64,000 nucleotides of DNA from a bacterium (GTDB taxonomy: Bacteria; JAMCPX01). Location of the stretch: contig JAJYLN010000001.1 in assembly GCA_021787665.1 (NCBI GenBank), positions 62,001 through 126,000 on the forward strand, in the 5' to 3' direction. Shown one piece after another: positions 39,561 to 47,596 of the stretch. Numbering within the stretch: position 1 is the first letter of the stretch; each line of letters begins with the position of its first letter. A program made the translations under genes and the position numbers. The notes below the pieces were generated by a model. It was not told the DNA's origin and made no database searches. It saw nothing but the letters and a program-made list of their open reading frames with translations.

Positions 39561-41573
39561 TCATCGGACTTTGAGCTCCGCTATGATGCCGTTCAGCATC
39601 CTGTCCGTCACCAGCATATTGTGGAGGCCATTCGCTTTCGTCAAATACGATATTTTTGCGTTGGCATCGTCATACCGTGCCTTTGCCCGTCTATACGACG
39701 TGGTGTTCTTATCCATGCCCTCGAGCATGATGGAGGCGTTCTTCAACAGCAGCTCGGCTTTCTCGTACTTCCTCGTGTACAGAGTGCTCCACGTATCGAG
39801 CAGCTTTCCATAAGAGGTAACATGGCATGCTATGCATCGTCCCTTCACGGCGGCATAAACTGTCCCGGGCTTCATGCGTGCGTGGCAATCCGCGCACCCT
39901 ACGCTGCCGGACATGACGTTCGGGGTAGGGGGAACGCCGGGGAACCGGACATCGCCGTTGTAGAGAGATGCCGGGACGCCGTGGCACAGCGTGCAATTCG
40001 CTGTTGACTTGTTCTGATGATGGCAGCCCGCGCACGCATCAATCTTTATGTCCATCGCCATCGTGTGGTCCGTGGGGTGACAGGCAGCACAGTCCATGCC
40101 CATGCCCGCATGGAGATCGTGAGGGAAGTCCACGCCGAGCGCCGCAAACTTCACGGTCCCGGGCATACCGAGCGTGTCATGACACAGGACTGCACACGAA
40201 GCACCCACGCTCTGCAGCGATAGGGGCCTGTTTCCACTGACCTTGCCGGCACCGGCCAGTCTGGTGGCTCTGTCCGCGAGGTCGAGCGTGTCCATCAATA
40301 TCTGCTGCGTGTATCGAATATTATGGGAGGGACGGGCCGCAGAGACGAACCGACTGTTGAAGACGGCGGCGTTCAGCAGCTTCCTCGCCCGTGCCTTCAC
40401 CGCGCTGCCCCTGTGAGAACCATTGATGGCGCTGCCAGCCCCGCGGATGGCAGTATGGACATACCCCAGCATACTGTTGCCCAAGTTTAACCAGTGATAC
40501 ATCAGCCTGTCGTACGGCCTGCCGTGGCACTCCACACAAGCGTGTGCGGTCTCTTTCAGCGTCTGCGCCTTCGTGAGCCGCTGCGTGCTTTCCAAGGCCC
40601 GTGACTTCCTGGACGGATGACACCCCTCGCAGCTTACCTGTGTGGAAAACATGTCATCCGGCATAGGGGGTGTGTCCAGAGCACCCATTCCCATGTACAT
40701 CTCTCTCTGGGAATTGTGCCTGCCCTTGTGGCAGTCCGTACAGCCTGACTCAAGGGCCTGGATCATGTGGATCTCGCCGTGGTGCATCTTCGTATGACAT
40801 CTATCACAGGTGAGGTGCTCCTTCGTCACATGGGTATTGTGAACGAACACCGGGTTGTCGTACTTGTAGGACCTGTCCTCATGGCATTTGTGGCACCGGT
40901 TGTGCGGGACGTCTCCGTTACCCGTAATAACATCGAGGTGGCACTGGTTGCATAGCATGCCTTTCGTGAGATAGGACTTGTGGTTGAAGCTCATGCCGTT
41001 AAGCTCGACTGTCTTTGCCGGGCTCCCGTGACAGGACGGGCAGCCCGTTATCGCCTCACCCCGGGGCGCGCCGATAAAGTGGCACGATATACAGGCGTCC
41101 TCATCCACGGTACTCAGCGGCGAGCCATGGGTAACTGACGGATGACAAGTCTCGCAGGTCAGCAGCATCTCCCTGACACTCTTGCCCACATGCAGACTAT
41201 GATTGAAGTATACCATGTTCTTATAAAACACCGGTTTCCCTATCTCGGATAGAGGATGGCATTTTATGCAGAGCGCATCGTCAACAACCGTTATAGGATG
41301 GGGGTTATACATGCCTGTCCACGTGGCAAACTCCATTTTTGTAAAATAATTGAACCCGAGTTTGTGGCAGGTAGTACAGCGGACGTCTTTGTGCACAGAA
41401 ACATTCCATGCGCGGATGTAAGGCTCCATAACATGACACGAGGCACACGTCGTTGCCGAGCCGGAGAGCGCCTGAAAGATCAGGTTCGGAACCAGCCATA
41501 ACACGATCAGGACCCCTGCCAGTATCGAGCCGAGCCTATGTCTCTTGAAGAACCGCAGGAGCGCGTCACCCAT
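39561..41573 (-). CDS. Large multihaem cytochrome c, 17 CXXCH plus one CX3CH site
   Basis: A 670-residue cytochrome with an N-terminal membrane anchor (residues 14-36), then a NapC/NirT-like beginning (CASCHVMEP and a CTTCH site). CXXCH sites are spread through the first half (12 up to about residue 350), a gap of about 100 residues without cysteine follows, and then a CAVLCH and five more. The last ~90 residues are haem-free and helical. It likely takes electrons from the quinone pool or the partner b subunits and passes them across the periplasm. It overlaps the upstream cytochrome b by 8 bases. No close family name is recognised. Confidence 0.85.
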   Translation of the reverse strand: MGDALLRFFKRHRLGSILAGVLIVLWLVPNLIFQALSGSATTCASCHVMEPYIRAWNVSVHKDVRCTTCHKLGFNYFTKMEFATWTGMYNPHPITVVDDALCIKCHPLSEIGKPVFYKNMVYFNHSLHVGKSVREMLLTCETCHPSVTHGSPLSTVDEDACISCHFIGAPRGEAITGCPSCHGSPAKTVELNGMSFNHKSYLTKGMLCNQCHLDVITGNGDVPHNRCHKCHEDRSYKYDNPVFVHNTHVTKEHLTCDRCHTKMHHGEIHMIQALESGCTDCHKGRHNSQREMYMGMGALDTPPMPDDMFSTQVSCEGCHPSRKSRALESTQRLTKAQTLKETAHACVECHGRPYDRLMYHWLNLGNSMLGYVHTAIRGAGSAINGSHRGSAVKARARKLLNAAVFNSRFVSAARPSHNIRYTQQILMDTLDLADRATRLAGAGKVSGNRPLSLQSVGASCAVLCHDTLGMPGTVKFAALGVDFPHDLHAGMGMDCAACHPTDHTMAMDIKIDACAGCHHQNKSTANCTLCHGVPASLYNGDVRFPGVPPTPNVMSGSVGCADCHARMKPGTVYAAVKGRCIACHVTSYGKLLDTWSTLYTRKYEKAELLLKNASIMLEGMDKNTTSYRRAKARYDDANAKISYLTKANGLHNMLVTDRMLNGIIAELKVR

Positions 41574-42489
41574 TCCTGCCCTCCCTGGCTTTCATTATCC
41601 TCTCGTACTCGAGCGGGTGCTCGTCTATCATCTGCTCTTTCGTCAATTTCCCGTGCCACCATACGAGCGAGCCGGGGAACCTGCTCGGGTTGAAGTGGAC
41701 ATTATAGAAGTGCCAAATGACGATCGTGAGCGTTGCGAGCAGCGCCTCGTCGCTGTGTGCCTCCCGTGCAATATCGTACACATACTTTGGCAGGTACCGC
41801 AAGGTGATATTATGGAGCCACATGATGAGCCCTGACCCTACCATCACGATACCGCCCCAGTATACCGCCCAGTAATCGAACTTCTCGATGTAGCTGAACC
41901 GGTCGAACCGAGGCTTCTCCCGTGACAGCCCGAAGAAATACTTGATCATCTTGACGACATCCGTGACGTCCTTGGGCCTCGGGAGGAGGGCCACGAAATC
42001 CCTCCTCCCATCCTTGTTGAAGATGGTATAGCCTGTATGGAACACGTAGAACGCTATCAGCAGAACTGCGCCTATTCTGTGCAGGACACCCTGCATGGCA
42101 ATACCGCCCATGACAGACATAAGTATCTTCGATGCGGTCGCGTTGGGGAACTTGATGGGTAGTCCCGTAATGATCAGGATGATCACGCTCGCGAACAGAA
42201 TGATATGCTGTATCCTGAAGTACAGGTTGAACCTCTGGAAGGTCTCCTGCCTCCACCTCTTCTTCTCGGCGATTCTGGCCCTGGCCTTCTTCTCTTTCGC
42301 GACGGCTCGGTATATCCGTTTGAGCCTCGTGCCCATGAACACGTCCAGATCCCTCGCCGTCTCGGCCCTCACCAGGCCCTTGGTCATCTCGATGAGCTCC
42401 GGCTCTCCCTGGATGCCCAGCGATTCTACCAGGGACTTCTCCAGCCCATCTATAAACTTGTTGCGCGCCTCGTCGTATCCGCCTTCCAT
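41566..42489 (-). CDS. Cytochrome b subunit (b561-like, four-helix) of a multihaem complex
   Basis: A 307-residue protein with a basic cytoplasmic N-terminal stretch (to about residue 95, with a coiled RIAEKKRWRQETFQ) and four membrane helices. Histidines suited to bind two haem b are in IQHIILFAS, LHRIGAVLLIAFYVFHTG and IWHFYNVHFNPS. The order resembles formate dehydrogenase/hydrogenase-type cytochrome b and the b part of the fused 671-residue protein. It lies between two multihaem cytochrome genes and should link them to the quinone pool. Confidence 0.82.
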   Translation of the reverse strand: MEGGYDEARNKFIDGLEKSLVESLGIQGEPELIEMTKGLVRAETARDLDVFMGTRLKRIYRAVAKEKKARARIAEKKRWRQETFQRFNLYFRIQHIILFASVIILIITGLPIKFPNATASKILMSVMGGIAMQGVLHRIGAVLLIAFYVFHTGYTIFNKDGRRDFVALLPRPKDVTDVVKMIKYFFGLSREKPRFDRFSYIEKFDYWAVYWGGIVMVGSGLIMWLHNITLRYLPKYVYDIAREAHSDEALLATLTIVIWHFYNVHFNPSRFPGSLVWWHGKLTKEQMIDEHPLEYERIMKAREGRNG

Positions 42490-42491
42490 GC

Positions 42492-43553
42492 CTAATCATG
42501 CTCCTTTTTTTTGCCTATCTCCCCTGCCCTGTACCGCCGGAACAGATCGAGCAGGATGTGAATAAACAGCACCGTCAGCGTGGACAGGGTCAGTATCTCG
42601 AAGAATAATCCGATATAGTAGATAATACCGGAAGACCTGCTTTTATAATTAACGTGAATTTTCCCCTTGGTAAAGTTCACGTCCGCATTGGGGTGACACT
42701 TACTGCATGTCTTCGCAAGATTTGCCTTGTTGATCGAGGAGCGCGGGTCCGATTGCGGCAGTATAAGGTGAGCCCGGTGACAGCTTGAGCAGTTCGCGAC
42801 CCTGACGGACCCGAACTCGTCCGCGACCCCGTGATAGCTCTCCTTGTAGGTGCTGATTCTTCCCCCGGGTATATTGTACTTCCGGATCAGTTCCTTGTTC
42901 TCATGGCACTTCGAGCACACATTGATCACATTGAGCGGATATATGTTCGATTCCGGGTTGCTCGGCCTGAGGATGAGGTGCTTGCCATGGCACGTGGTGC
43001 AGGTGGGTGCTGACCGTATGTGCCTGTCCAGCAGCGCGGTCCCGTGTATACTCTGGATATAGTTGTCATACTGCGGCTTATGGCACGTACCGCATGTGGA
43101 CGCGACATTCTGATGGTTGACCGTGGAGAGCGGTGAATCCACCTTCTGCACGCTGTGCCCACCGTGGCAGTTCTGGCAGAGCGGCGCCTTGGGGTCGCCC
43201 CGGGCCACGAGCTTCCCGTGCACGGACTGGAAAAACTCGTTCGCGGGGAGTGCGCCGTTGGGGTTGTCCTTGTAGTGGCAGCGGTAGCAGTTTACCCTGC
43301 CCGGGCGCTTCAGGTGTGGGATCTCCATGACATCGGCATGACAGTCCGTGCAGTGCAGCTTCGCGTGTATGGAGTTCTCCAGCTCCGCCCTATTCACGAA
43401 GAGCTCAAGTACCTTCCCGTCCGGCATCACCTTCTTAAAGCCGGGTCTGCCGTGGCACAACAGGCACTTCTGGTACAAGGGGGCCTGTGCCGATGCGCTC
43501 GCCGCGACAAGTGTCGCCGCAGCAACCAGGAGGAAATAGCTAATGGTCCTCAT
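42492..43553 (-). CDS. Nine-haem cytochrome c with C-terminal membrane anchor
   Basis: A 353-residue exported protein: cleavable signal (residues 1-22, ending SASAQA), nine CXXCH sites and one C-terminal membrane helix (about 308-330) followed by a basic tail. The block STYKESYHGVADEFG, with the last two haem sites, recurs in the 7-haem and 11-haem proteins nearby. Its partner cytochrome b starts 3 bases downstream. Periplasmic, tail-anchored electron carrier; donor and acceptor unknown. Confidence 0.88.
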   Translation of the reverse strand: MRTISYFLLVAAATLVAASASAQAPLYQKCLLCHGRPGFKKVMPDGKVLELFVNRAELENSIHAKLHCTDCHADVMEIPHLKRPGRVNCYRCHYKDNPNGALPANEFFQSVHGKLVARGDPKAPLCQNCHGGHSVQKVDSPLSTVNHQNVASTCGTCHKPQYDNYIQSIHGTALLDRHIRSAPTCTTCHGKHLILRPSNPESNIYPLNVINVCSKCHENKELIRKYNIPGGRISTYKESYHGVADEFGSVRVANCSSCHRAHLILPQSDPRSSINKANLAKTCSKCHPNADVNFTKGKIHVNYKSRSSGIIYYIGLFFEILTLSTLTVLFIHILLDLFRRYRAGEIGKKKEHD

Positions 43554-44226
43554 CCGACCTGTCCGATACCAACCTGTCGTATTCGAGCCTGTGCTCGTTC
43601 TTCATCCTGTCCACCTGGATCTTGCCATCGATCCACGTCATACTCATCGGGAAGACCGCCGGGTTCAGATGGACATTGTACATATGGAACAGGAACAGGA
43701 CTATGAATATCAACACGCCATCCCAGCCGTGCACGATCAGCGTAAGGTCTATGATCCATTTCGGCAGAATTGCCATAGACTCGTTGACGAACCACAGGAC
43801 CATGCCGGTAACGATCATGACGGCCGTGCCGATCGCGACGCCCCAGTACTGGAGCTTCTGGAGATAGTCGTACCGGTCGAACGCCGGCAGGTTGTTCGAA
43901 AGTCCGAGGTTGAAGGCGAGCTTTTGAAAGAAGTCCGATAAATCCTTGTGCCGGGGCACCATCGCCATAAGCTCGCTATGGCCGGTATCGGTGAACGTCA
44001 CCCATGCAGCATGGTACACGGCGAGAAGGATAAGCACGATCGCGAACGCCCTGTGGATCAGGCCCCTGAAGAGGATGCCCCCTTCCAGGCGGATCAGCCA
44101 TGCCGAGACCACGTTGTCGTGGAACTTCAGGACAAGGCCCGTGAGCAGCAGGACGATCATTGCTATCAGCAGAACGCCGTGCTGGAGGCGCAGGTCCAAA
44201 GAAAGACGTTCGACCCGGTCATTCAT
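43540..44226 (-). CDS. Cytochrome b subunit (b561-like, four-helix)
   Basis: A 228-residue protein with four hydrophobic segments. Haem-ligand candidates are in LQHGVLLIAM, IHRAFAIVLILLAVYHAA and FLFHMYNVHLNP. It shares LPAFDRYDYLQKLQYW and the NEHRLEYDRL end with the other two b units in the cluster, so they are paralogues. It overlaps the 9-haem gene by 14 bases and the 7-haem gene by 8 bases, indicating coupled translation. Confidence 0.85.
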   Translation of the reverse strand: MNDRVERLSLDLRLQHGVLLIAMIVLLLTGLVLKFHDNVVSAWLIRLEGGILFRGLIHRAFAIVLILLAVYHAAWVTFTDTGHSELMAMVPRHKDLSDFFQKLAFNLGLSNNLPAFDRYDYLQKLQYWGVAIGTAVMIVTGMVLWFVNESMAILPKWIIDLTLIVHGWDGVLIFIVLFLFHMYNVHLNPAVFPMSMTWIDGKIQVDRMKNEHRLEYDRLVSDRSDEDH

Positions 44227-45085
44227 GCATGGTGCTCCTTCTCCTCTTTCTTCTGGTATTGATGAGATCGAACAGCACGTAAAGGATGAACAGTACGATA
44301 AGGACGCTGATGAACCACGTATAGAAGACCCTCACCAGATAGGGCCCCCTCTCACCGTGCTTGCTGACTACGATGTGCACCGGGCTCTTGATAAAGTTCT
44401 TCGTGGCGTCCGGATGACACTTCCCGCAGGTCCTGGCAAGGTTCGCCCTGTTTATGGACGAGCGCGGGTCGCTCGACGGCAGTATCTCGTGCACCCCGTG
44501 GCAGCTCGCGCAGTTTGCGGCATGCAGGTCCCCGAACTTGAGGGCTATGCCATGGAAGCTGTTCTCGTATGTCGTCAGTCTGTTGAGCGGTAGGTTGTAC
44601 TGCTGCGCGAGCGTCACAGAATCATGGCAGCTCGAGCAGGTCCTCGGGATGTTCTCCGGGTATACCTTTGCGACCGGGTTCGTTATCTTCAGTATACCGT
44701 GGACGCCGTGGCAGTCCGTACAAACGGGCGCCGCGCCGATGCCCTTCTCCAGCGCGATCCAGTGAATACTCTGGGTATACTTCTTGTACACGTCCCGGTG
44801 GCACGTGGAGCACATAACAGGAACAGTGGTTTTCGAAAGAGCGATTGTTGCACGGTGCGGGTATCCTTTGATGTCCGCATGGCATTGGGTGCATGCTATG
44901 CCCTTATGGACAGACATAGCCATGACCCCTTCACTGATATACATCCCCGCCCTGCCAGTACCGGGAAACCTTGCAGCGAAGTCCTTATCGCCGTGGCACT
45001 GCAGGCAGGCCGTATCGTTCATGGGGTACGCGCTCCCCTGGAGACACAGAAACACGAGCACCAAAACAGGCATGAACCTTTTCAT
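44219..45085 (-). CDS. Seven-haem cytochrome c with C-terminal membrane anchor
   Basis: A 288-residue exported cytochrome from ATG 45085 (AAAGGGATT upstream); the frame to 45145 adds 20 unlikely residues. It has a signal peptide (MKRFMPVLVLVFLCLQGSAYP), seven CXXCH sites and a C-terminal membrane helix (about 258-280) with a basic tail. It is a shorter relative of the 9-haem protein and shares TYENSFHGIALKFGD. It is first in the minus-strand cytochrome run of five genes. Confidence 0.87.
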   Translation of the reverse strand: MKRFMPVLVLVFLCLQGSAYPMNDTACLQCHGDKDFAARFPGTGRAGMYISEGVMAMSVHKGIACTQCHADIKGYPHRATIALSKTTVPVMCSTCHRDVYKKYTQSIHWIALEKGIGAAPVCTDCHGVHGILKITNPVAKVYPENIPRTCSSCHDSVTLAQQYNLPLNRLTTYENSFHGIALKFGDLHAANCASCHGVHEILPSSDPRSSINRANLARTCGKCHPDATKNFIKSPVHIVVSKHGERGPYLVRVFYTWFISVLIVLFILYVLFDLINTRRKRRRSTMHE

Positions 45086-45470
45086 AGCATCAATCCCTTT
45101 GGCCCCTTTACGTTTTACATAATGCCGGATTCTCCATACGATCAATAAGATTCCATAGTCAACTCACTTTTGTTTTATTGTATTTATTTTTATATACGTA
45201 CATGAACCTCTGTATGCAGCGGCCCTGCGATTACCGTGGCAGGCTGTCTGCCAATGTCTCATAAAGGTATGCAGGTTCGGTGCCAACCTTCGTCTGCCGG
45301 TAGTACGCCCGAACAGTTAAGACTATCAAAAGCTCCTATAAGCAGGACGGCGAGACCACATCACCTGCTTTCAAAGGGGACCAGCTTATGAATCTGAAGC
45401 CCCATCCAACCATACAAGTGCGTGTTTTCACCTTGGGAATTGTGTATATGCACGCATTATATAGCTTATG

Positions 45471-45491
45471 GTGCCGCGAAAGCTGCGGCAC
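45471..45491. promoter_or_regulatory. Inverted repeat upstream of the 11-haem gene promoter
   Basis: GTGCCGC and GCGGCAC form perfect 7-base arms with a 7-base gap, ending 6 bases before the TTGACA of the candidate promoter. In an A+T-rich region such a G+C-rich dyad suggests an activator binding site, for example for a redox or nutrient sensor. Confidence 0.4.
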
Positions 45492-45497
45492 AAAAGA

Positions 45498-45527
45498 TTG
45501 ACATGCTTTTTATGAAAGAAGTATATT
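45498..45527 (+). promoter_or_regulatory. Sigma70-type promoter of the fused 11-haem cytochrome
   Basis: TTGACA (45498-45503) and TATATT (45522-45527) are 18 bases apart: a perfect -35 and a 5-of-6 -10. The predicted start is about 47 bases before GTG 45581. Confidence 0.6.
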
Positions 45528-45580
45528 GTATACATAATGCATGCATCATAATAAGAAATATAGTTTAAAAGGAGAGAACA

Positions 45581-47596
45581 GTGACAATATCCACGCTGAG
45601 AAAGATCGCGGTCATCGGTATAATCGCAGTAATAGTGCTCTATGGACTTACCCGTGAAACCTACGGAACGGGCGTACGGACAAAGCATGCACCGGATCAA
45701 GCCAGCTCCGAGACCTCAGCACTGACCGGCCGTAAACCGCGGCTCACGAGCAGCGACTGCCTCGCCTGTCATGGCATGAAAACGGAGGGCATACCGTACC
45801 TCGACGATGGACATTTCAAGTCGTCCGTACACGGCGGGATCACCTGTACTGACTGCCACAGCACGATCAAGACCCTGCCCCACCCTGAAAAACTGCCGGC
45901 CCCGGACTGTGGCAAATGTCACGGCGCCATCGAGACAACGTATACGGAGAGCGTACATGGTCATGCCGTAAAAAACGGCATAAGCAAGGCTGCACACTGC
46001 TGGGACTGTCACGGAATACACGGTATCCTACCGGCAACGGATCCGTCGTCGAGCGTCTTTCCGAAAAATCTCCCCTCGACGTGCGGCAAGTGTCACAACA
46101 GTGCGGAGATGGCAAAGGAGTACAACATCCCCGTGTCGAAGCCCTATCAACTCTACGAGGAGAGCATCCACGCGGTCGCTTTGAAAGAAGGGCTGCCCGC
46201 AGCCACCTGCTCGGATTGTCACGGCAGCCATGACATCCTCCCCATGAACATAACGGCCTCGACCATTTCAAAGACCAATATACCGCGTACGTGCTCCCGA
46301 TGCCATCGGAAAGAGTACGACAACTATATCCAATCATCGCATTGGAAGGCCTTCCAGCAGGGGATTCAGAACGCACCGGTCTGTACAGACTGCCATGCGG
46401 AGCATGCGATATTGTCGAAAGATAATCCCAACTCGCCGATATACCCCCTCAATGTGCCCAAGACCTGCACAGACTGCCACGGCAGGGTACAACTAGCTCA
46501 GAACTTCGGATTACCGGCCATAAAACTCTCGACCTACATGAAGAGTTTCCATGGTGTGATGATAGAGGGAGGCAGTGTGATAGCAGCCAACTGCGCCTCG
46601 TGCCACAGAGCGCATAAGATCCTGCCTCCCTCGAACCAGGCATCTTCCGTGTGCGCCTGCAATCTGCCGAAAACCTGCGGGAAATGCCACCCGGGCATAA
46701 CCAAGACCGATGTGAAACACCTGAGGGACATCCACGGAGCAATGGGGATGAGCAAAAAGATCATCGATCTGGTCAGACAGATCTATATAGGGCTCATAGT
46801 TGTCACCATCATCGGCATGCTCATCTTCGTATACGCTGACTTCATAAGGAAGATCGTCGACAAGGAGAAAGAGAGGATCGTACGACTCGAGGACAAGGGC
46901 GACTACCTACGTTTTAATCGTTCGGAGAGGTCCATGCACATCGTGCACCTTTTTGCGTTCTTCATCCTTGCCTACACGGGCTTTGCCCACCACTGGCCCG
47001 ATTACTGGTGGAGCGCTTGGCTCACACATCTGAACAATGGCCTTGTCCGTTCCTGGATACATAAGGCCTCCGGGGTCGTTCTCCTCGGGGTGTTCGTTCT
47101 GCAGTTCGTCCTCATGGTCAGCACGGAGCGCGGTAAAGAGCAGTTGAGGGCGCTGATACCAGTCTTCGATGATGTCAAAGGAGCCCTCGGTACGTTCCTT
47201 TACAACATAGGACTCGCTGACAAGAGGCCGGCGTTCGGCAGGTTCACCCCTTTCGAGAAGTTCGAGTACTGGGCCCTCATATGGGGCAATACTCTCATGG
47301 GGCTTACCGGCATGGCACTCTGGTTCACCGCCACCACACTCGCGCTGCTGCCAAAATGGTACCTCGATCTTTTCATTTTGATCCACTTCTATGAAGCGAT
47401 CCTCGCAACCCTAGCGATCCTTATATGGCACCTGTACTGGGTCGTATTCGATCCCATCATGTATCCGTTTAATCCGTCCATATTCACCGGGAAGATGTCC
47501 GTGAAGATAAGGGAGGAAGAACACCCTCTGGAGTTGACGGAGCATGCAGGAAAAGATTCTGCTGCGAGCAAGGACGAAATGGATCAGTACAAATAA
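45581..47596 (+). CDS. Fusion of an 11-haem cytochrome c and a cytochrome b
   Basis: A 671-residue protein: N-terminal anchor (residues 7-22), a periplasmic part with 11 CXXCH sites to about residue 375, a membrane helix (about 395-418), a basic cytoplasmic linker and four further membrane helices with haem-b histidines (HIVHLFAFF, WIHKASGVV, IHFYEAILA, IWHLYWVVF). The two halves match the separate c and b proteins encoded leftward, so this is the one-chain version of that module. GTG start behind AAAGGAGAG. It would move electrons between quinone and periplasmic haems. No catalytic subunit follows; a strong hairpin lies right after the stop. Confidence 0.88.
   Translation: MTISTLRKIAVIGIIAVIVLYGLTRETYGTGVRTKHAPDQASSETSALTGRKPRLTSSDCLACHGMKTEGIPYLDDGHFKSSVHGGITCTDCHSTIKTLPHPEKLPAPDCGKCHGAIETTYTESVHGHAVKNGISKAAHCWDCHGIHGILPATDPSSSVFPKNLPSTCGKCHNSAEMAKEYNIPVSKPYQLYEESIHAVALKEGLPAATCSDCHGSHDILPMNITASTISKTNIPRTCSRCHRKEYDNYIQSSHWKAFQQGIQNAPVCTDCHAEHAILSKDNPNSPIYPLNVPKTCTDCHGRVQLAQNFGLPAIKLSTYMKSFHGVMIEGGSVIAANCASCHRAHKILPPSNQASSVCACNLPKTCGKCHPGITKTDVKHLRDIHGAMGMSKKIIDLVRQIYIGLIVVTIIGMLIFVYADFIRKIVDKEKERIVRLEDKGDYLRFNRSERSMHIVHLFAFFILAYTGFAHHWPDYWWSAWLTHLNNGLVRSWIHKASGVVLLGVFVLQFVLMVSTERGKEQLRALIPVFDDVKGALGTFLYNIGLADKRPAFGRFTPFEKFEYWALIWGNTLMGLTGMALWFTATTLALLPKWYLDLFILIHFYEAILATLAILIWHLYWVVFDPIMYPFNPSIFTGKMSVKIREEEHPLELTEHAGKDSAASKDEMDQYK

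Follow-up and report, generated by a model that had tools for sequence, protein, structure and literature searches.

Multihaem cytochrome c and cytochrome b genes of an uncultured bacterial phylum form a conserved set with a probable role in extracellular electron transfer

The described systems closest in design to the genes reported here pair multihaem cytochromes c with membrane cytochromes b. CbcL has nine c haems, all with bis-histidine ligation, six helices and two b haems (PMC9129911), and the wider CbcL/MtrH/MtoC family occurs in 15 phyla as proteins of 416-1034 amino acids with 3-23 haem motifs, sometimes encoded beside mtrAB (PMC6295460). In Geobacter sulfurreducens, the membrane-bound CbcA has seven haems and belongs to PF09699, and CbcB is a cytochrome b of PF01292 (PMC7726332). 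Cluster 1 of MBNT15 SHF-111 brings together four genes for multihaem c and two for four-helix cytochromes b, for which a role as a quinone-linked Fe(III) reduction complex was put forward (PMC9386147, 2022), while the methanophenazine:cytochrome c oxidoreductase (Mco) of anaerobic methanotrophic (ANME) archaea has a hydrogenase-type cytochrome b beside a 7- to 11-haem c (PMC9012536). Here we describe six genes at positions 39561-47596 of a 64,000-nucleotide stretch of DNA (the window; contig C15, GenBank JAJYLN010000001.1, positions 62001-126000) from a bacterium of a small uncultured phylum, whose assembly (GCA_021787665.1) comprises 2.25 Mb in 35 contigs and is 92.7% complete. We consider it probable, at about 0.74, that the products of these genes are quinol:cytochrome c oxidoreductases of the inner membrane that serve extracellular electron transfer. 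The locus is laid out as follows.

39561-41573, minus strand: c18, membrane-anchored multihaem cytochrome c (670 amino acids; 17 CXXCH plus one CX3CH, giving 18 haems)
41566-42489, minus strand: b2, cytochrome b (307 amino acids; PF01292)
42492-43553, minus strand: c9, nine-haem cytochrome c with a C-terminal transmembrane helix (353 amino acids)
43540-44226, minus strand: b1, cytochrome b (228 amino acids; PF01292)
44219-45145, minus strand: c7, seven-haem cytochrome c with a C-terminal transmembrane helix (PF09699)
45146-45580, no strand: intergenic region from which operon and fusion gene diverge, by gene coordinates
45581-47596, plus strand: fusion of an 11-haem cytochrome c with an FdnI-type di-haem cytochrome b (671 amino acids; PF01292 at residues 444-625)

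The minus-strand genes are read in the order c7, b1, c9, b2 and c18. Since they overlap or lie two bases apart, all five appear to form a single operon with translational coupling; the fusion gene diverges from them 435 bp upstream. Translation of c7 probably begins at the ATG at 45085 rather than at the TTG at 45145, because its orthologues are 288 amino acids long.

The proteins carry 44 CXXCH motifs (17 in c18, nine in c9, seven in c7 and 11 in the fusion) and a single CX3CH, which is CAVLCH at residue 460 of c18. Shuffled versions of these proteins contain on average 0.03-0.13 CXXCH motifs, with a maximum of three. An earlier note made from the window's sequence had given these counts and coordinates correctly; it had spread the motifs over six genes, whereas four of the six carry them and the other two encode cytochromes b. 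The same note had pointed to sequence blocks shared among the three c/b sets, and these are indeed present. A TYxxS[FY]HG segment precedes the last two haems in c7, c9 and the c part of the fusion, and the b parts have P-x-F-[DG]-R and EH-[PR]-LE-[YL] in common, in the fusion as FGR and EHPLEL. Identity between c parts is 44% for c7 and c9, 44% for c7 and the fusion, and 42% for c9 and the fusion; between b parts it is 35% for b1 and b2, and 33% for b against fusion b. By these alignments, c7+b1, c9+b2 and the c11-b fusion are homologous modules. Matches to DnaJ and Herpes_ORF28 on cysteine-rich stretches were set aside as composition artefacts.

Both b1 and b2, as well as the C-terminal part of the fusion, match PF01292, and the b parts resemble the formate dehydrogenase gamma subunit with scores below the family cut-off. 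An AlphaFold model of the fusion (predicted local distance difference test score, pLDDT, 84) places its b part close to FdnI (1kqf_C; Z 16.6, 3.2 Å, 209 residues) and, at a lower score, HyaC (Z 11.5). Histidines 453, 494, 602 and 617 of this part are invariant across 47 homologues, which is enough for two b haems. The protein has one N-terminal hydrophobic segment, either a signal or an anchor, followed by five more.

In the alignment of the same 47 homologues, the c part of the fusion conserves its 11 motif histidines together with 11 further histidines. Orthologues of c9 have nine conserved distal histidines plus His332 in the membrane helix, and those of c7 have seven. A second conserved histidine is thus available for 11 of 11, nine of nine and seven of seven haems, so that no open catalytic haem is expected in the three modules; their c haems look six-coordinate with bis-histidine ligation, an arrangement suited to electron transfer and not catalysis. 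Part of the modelled c domain of the fusion is similar to the hydroxylamine oxidoreductase haem core, but the score is middling (Z 8.8) and may reflect a common haem arrangement only. PDB entry 28pb, which in length would fit a CbcL periplasmic domain, matches the first haems of the fusion; nothing here rests on that match, and the absence of the entry from the fold search speaks neither for nor against it. In the membrane helix of c9, His332 is conserved at 93%; many distant fusions show HN at this place, and the fusion in the window does not.

The gene set is conserved well beyond the source genome. The five-gene operon and the divergent fusion are intact in four genomes (G001, G002, G003 and G006), contig ends interrupt the set in three (G005, G007 and G008), and in G004 the fusion lies on a different contig from the other genes. 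All nine genomes examined from the phylum have the fusion. Outside the phylum, full or partial sets occur at six loci (L038, L039, L041, L104, L111 and L123), while fusions alone are found in Acidobacteriota, Zixibacteria, KSB1, Verrucomicrobia, Omnitrophota and others. A single scan yielded related stretches, at least 562 in number. The viral contigs searched contain no relative of the fusion, and the plasmids searched gave no match to the fusion or c7. The earlier note had recommended looking for the same gene order in other genomes, and the order recurs within the phylum and, whole or in part, in distant phyla.

A tree of b domains, built by a quick method and with several open forks, divides b1, b2 and most fusions into separate groups, each containing several phyla. 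Because the b clades are separate and orthologues match one to one, the duplication of the module appears to be old: it is not local to the source genome and is judged to have preceded the set's spread through the phyla. Repeated duplication of a quinone-linked module had been suggested before, and the suggestion holds, but for an ancient event. In G004, an 11-haem version stands in place of c7 (contig C21; L035:10777-12000), as it does at the distant loci L038 and L039. Given these longer versions, c7 may have lost four haems in the relatives of G004.

Evidence for a route across the outer membrane comes mainly from other genomes. Genes scoring above the cut-off of TIGR03508 (DmsE/MtrA) are present in three of 24 genomes (G014, G017 and G055), each no more than about 10 kb away from a fusion or b module. 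Since these genomes measure 2.5-4.5 Mb, such proximity is unlikely to be due to chance, although the presence of several modules per genome and the after-the-fact choice soften the figure. Fourteen neighbouring multihaem proteins from other genomes, selected for their size and number of haems, all give matches to the DmsE and GSU2203 models, and one neighbouring porin is an MtrB_PioB protein (6e-109). At L041, a 13-haem protein and a partner of 456 amino acids directly adjoin the gene set. A homologue of this cytochrome, also with 13 haems (about 24% identity, 5e-21), is encoded in the source genome at C28:7407-9701, next to a partner of 410 amino acids. The electron conduit proposed in the earlier note is supported by MtrA/DmsE-type cytochromes beside the same fusion in other phyla.

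The C28 pair (L055:7407-9701) begins with the 410-residue putative outer-membrane protein, followed by the 13-haem cytochrome, which has a lipoprotein-like start. This cytochrome is homologous to 12- to 14-haem proteins that are paired with porin-like genes in other phyla.

Several points weigh against an extracellular role. An MtrA/DmsE gene above the cut-off in only three of 24 genomes implies that other partners are common, and most porin candidates match MtrB_PioB below threshold or not at all. The window itself contains no conduit gene, the candidate being on another contig, and its 410-residue protein has no Pfam match and is assigned as a barrel by inspection of its sequence only. The known systems introduced above (CbcL/MtrH/MtoC, CbcBA, MBNT15 and ANME Mco) were compared by architecture from their descriptions and not by sequence, which for CbcL and CbcA/B counts on the same side. 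Finally, with the source genome 92.7% complete, absences from it are soft.

The last gene of the operon, c18, differs from what had been supposed. It had been called an 18-haem carrier; it is not a plain soluble one, as it has one N-terminal membrane helix, a full-length match to NrfH that falls below the cut-off (TIGR03153, 26.1 bits versus 134.2, E 7e-6) and a duplicated part resembling NrfA, MccA and OcwA. Across 13 orthologues, all 18 motif histidines are invariant and 13 distal histidines are invariant or nearly so. The CX3CH motif recurs in orthologues from several phyla as CAVLCH, CATLCH, CTAMCH or CTTFCH, for which reason it is probably a real haem site; several of these proteins also have a CX4CH at another site. 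Residues 195-450 are homologous to residues 451-668 (hhalign 99.9%, E 6e-32; blastp 8e-11 without composition correction). Haem motifs raise both scores, but the alignment nonetheless continues through the haem-free helical ends, and on this comparison c18 carries an internal duplication.

The structural model of c18 is weak (pLDDT 63.5), which makes its fold matches tentative and a lead only: the C-terminus resembles OcwA (Z 11.2) and MccA (Z 11.1), and the middle resembles NrfA (Z about 9). All 36 cysteines fall within the 17 CXXCH and one CX3CH motifs, leaving neither a CXXCK nor an MccA-type long-spaced catalytic site in the protein. Elsewhere in the same genome (C15:219893-221407; L147:9894-11408) lies a gene for a shorter protein with 11 haems, related to c18 over the first two thirds of the latter; most genomes of the phylum have a counterpart.

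Haem motif counts, conserved ligands, the predicted b fold, conservation of the set and the MtrA/DmsE-type neighbourhoods in other phyla together suggest how the system could work. In each module, the membrane part would be a cytochrome b of FdnI type with two haems, and the periplasmic part a multihaem c domain with bis-histidine ligation. Menaquinol, the inferred donor, would be oxidised at the b parts, and its electrons would cross the membrane through the two b haems before passing along the c haems. The c18 protein would then gather electrons and relay them outward across the periplasm to a porin-cytochrome conduit in the outer membrane. In the source genome this conduit would most likely be the 13-haem cytochrome and the adjacent 410-residue protein, and the acceptor finally served by such an export and hand-over could be metals, humics or another cell.

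The three modules could serve different potentials, as do ImcH, CbcL and CbcBA in Geobacter (PMC12307469), but the shared operon argues for joint use instead. Joint use might extend to a single assembly. A bolder and rather unlikely proposal is that the three c/b modules and c18 make up one stable inner-membrane supercomplex with three quinol sites and a chain of about 45 c haems spanning much of the periplasm, in which c18, with its NrfH-like anchor and duplicated NrfA/MccA/OcwA-like unit, would represent a novel type of reductase or of subunit bridging the periplasm.

The same proteins might instead run in reverse, with electrons from outside (from Fe(II) or a partner cell) entering by the conduit and the c haems to reduce quinone at the b parts. 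Fe(III) reducers and Fe(II) oxidisers alike have homologues of CbcL/MtrH/MtoC, and nothing in the sequences tells one direction from the other (PMC6295460); moreover, CbcBA has been proposed to work backwards in Seep-SRB2 (PMC10553843), and FdnI, the closest solved fold, reduces quinone. Of the nine genomes examined from the phylum, seven have a dsrA gene that scores above the cut-off; such electrons could therefore feed sulfur metabolism in sister lineages. The two genomes without a dsrA above the cut-off are G004 and the source genome, and the latter also has no COX1 match; within a search that covered few reductases, it therefore offers no evident strong acceptor for electrons flowing inward, and we regard reverse operation as unlikely. 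A bc-type complex was rejected, as the six genes include no Rieske protein and give no match to PF00355 or PF00033.

Two further explanations would end the path in the periplasm. In one, c18 is itself a reductase of nitrite, sulfite or another small molecule, and the b/c modules are its quinol dehydrogenases. The sub-threshold NrfH match, the two homologous halves and the likeness of parts of the model to OcwA, MccA and NrfA agree with this, and 13 invariant distal histidines for 18 haems mean that some haems may be open. Against these stand the cysteine count, which leaves no room for a CXXCK or MccA-type site, and the poor quality of the model on which the fold matches depend; besides, OcwA is itself an extracellular electron-transfer cytochrome. 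Catalysis by c18 is accordingly judged very unlikely. Alternatively, the acceptor could be a soluble reductase or peroxidase encoded elsewhere, as the want of a conduit gene in the window might suggest, and the genome does encode further candidates for the periplasm, among them, on contig C14, a molybdopterin enzyme accompanied by a five-haem protein. This is the least probable explanation of all, given that MtrA/DmsE-type and 12- to 14-haem porin-paired cytochromes lie repeatedly near the set in unrelated phyla, and that the same genome encodes the 13-haem/porin candidate together with at least four large nine-haem proteins.

These nine-haem proteins, of about 810-905 amino acids, are encoded at C15:55583-58006, on C8 (two) and on C2 (L054, L051, L052 and L053); multihaem genes of the source genome were found by pattern and family search, and their numbers are lower bounds. 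The one scanned for domains, at C15:55583-58006, has CarboxypepD_reg, PKD-like and MtrC/MtrF-like domains. On C23 (L061:6881-10467), a Rieske protein and a cytochrome b are flanked by two five-haem cytochromes, possibly forming a bc-type complex. Within the window there are no multihaem genes other than those listed (two or more sites per frame), and an Rfam scan gave zero matches. The flanking genes that were scanned are mostly housekeeping genes, encoding pyruvate carboxylase, MEMO, an M48 protease, a PfkB kinase, UvrA and Mfd. No catalytic subunit was found in the scanned part of the window, in agreement with the earlier note, which had seen none nearby.

With the fusion in nine of nine genomes, a whole uncultured phylum takes its place among the likely extracellular electron transfer bacteria. 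The triple quinone-cytochrome set is an old unit common to several phyla and not a local oddity, useful both as a marker for such respiration and as a defined candidate complex. Structural work would find targets in the CX3CH haem, with its conservation, and in the 18-haem subunit, with its duplication.

The earlier note could match the gene set to no named complex, but its architecture does fit described ones: CbcL/MtrH/MtoC for the fusion, CbcBA for c7+b1 and the MBNT15 locus for the whole set. Like CbcL/MtrH/MtoC proteins, the fusion joins an N-terminal multihaem c domain to a C-terminal FdnI/HydC-like di-haem cytochrome b, has bis-histidine c haems (for the fusion, by conservation and not by spectroscopy), is spread over many phyla and often has genes of mtrAB type in its vicinity; its 11 CXXCH motifs, 671 residues and PF01292 domain at 444-625 lie within the ranges of that family. 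It differs from CbcL in having 11 c haems rather than nine, and in having as neighbours two c/b pairs encoded by separate genes and the anchored cytochrome c18. The c7+b1 pair has the composition of CbcBA, a heptahaem PF09699 cytochrome c with a separate PF01292 cytochrome b, but shares its operon with a second c/b pair and c18. The c/b modules also recall ANME Mco, by description a hydrogenase-type cytochrome b next to a multihaem c, whereas Mco is archaeal, linked to methanophenazine and a single pair. As described, MBNT15 cluster 1 has the same composition of four multihaem c and two b genes per locus, with 9-16 haems per protein against 7-18 in the window. By analogy, then, the set belongs to a recognised metal-respiration kind, that of CbcL/MtrH/MtoC and CbcBA, and, judged by described architecture, its overall make-up is already known from another phylum, MBNT15. 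What is new here is that the triple set is ancient, that the CX3CH haem is conserved and that c18 has an internal duplication resembling NrfA, MccA and OcwA.

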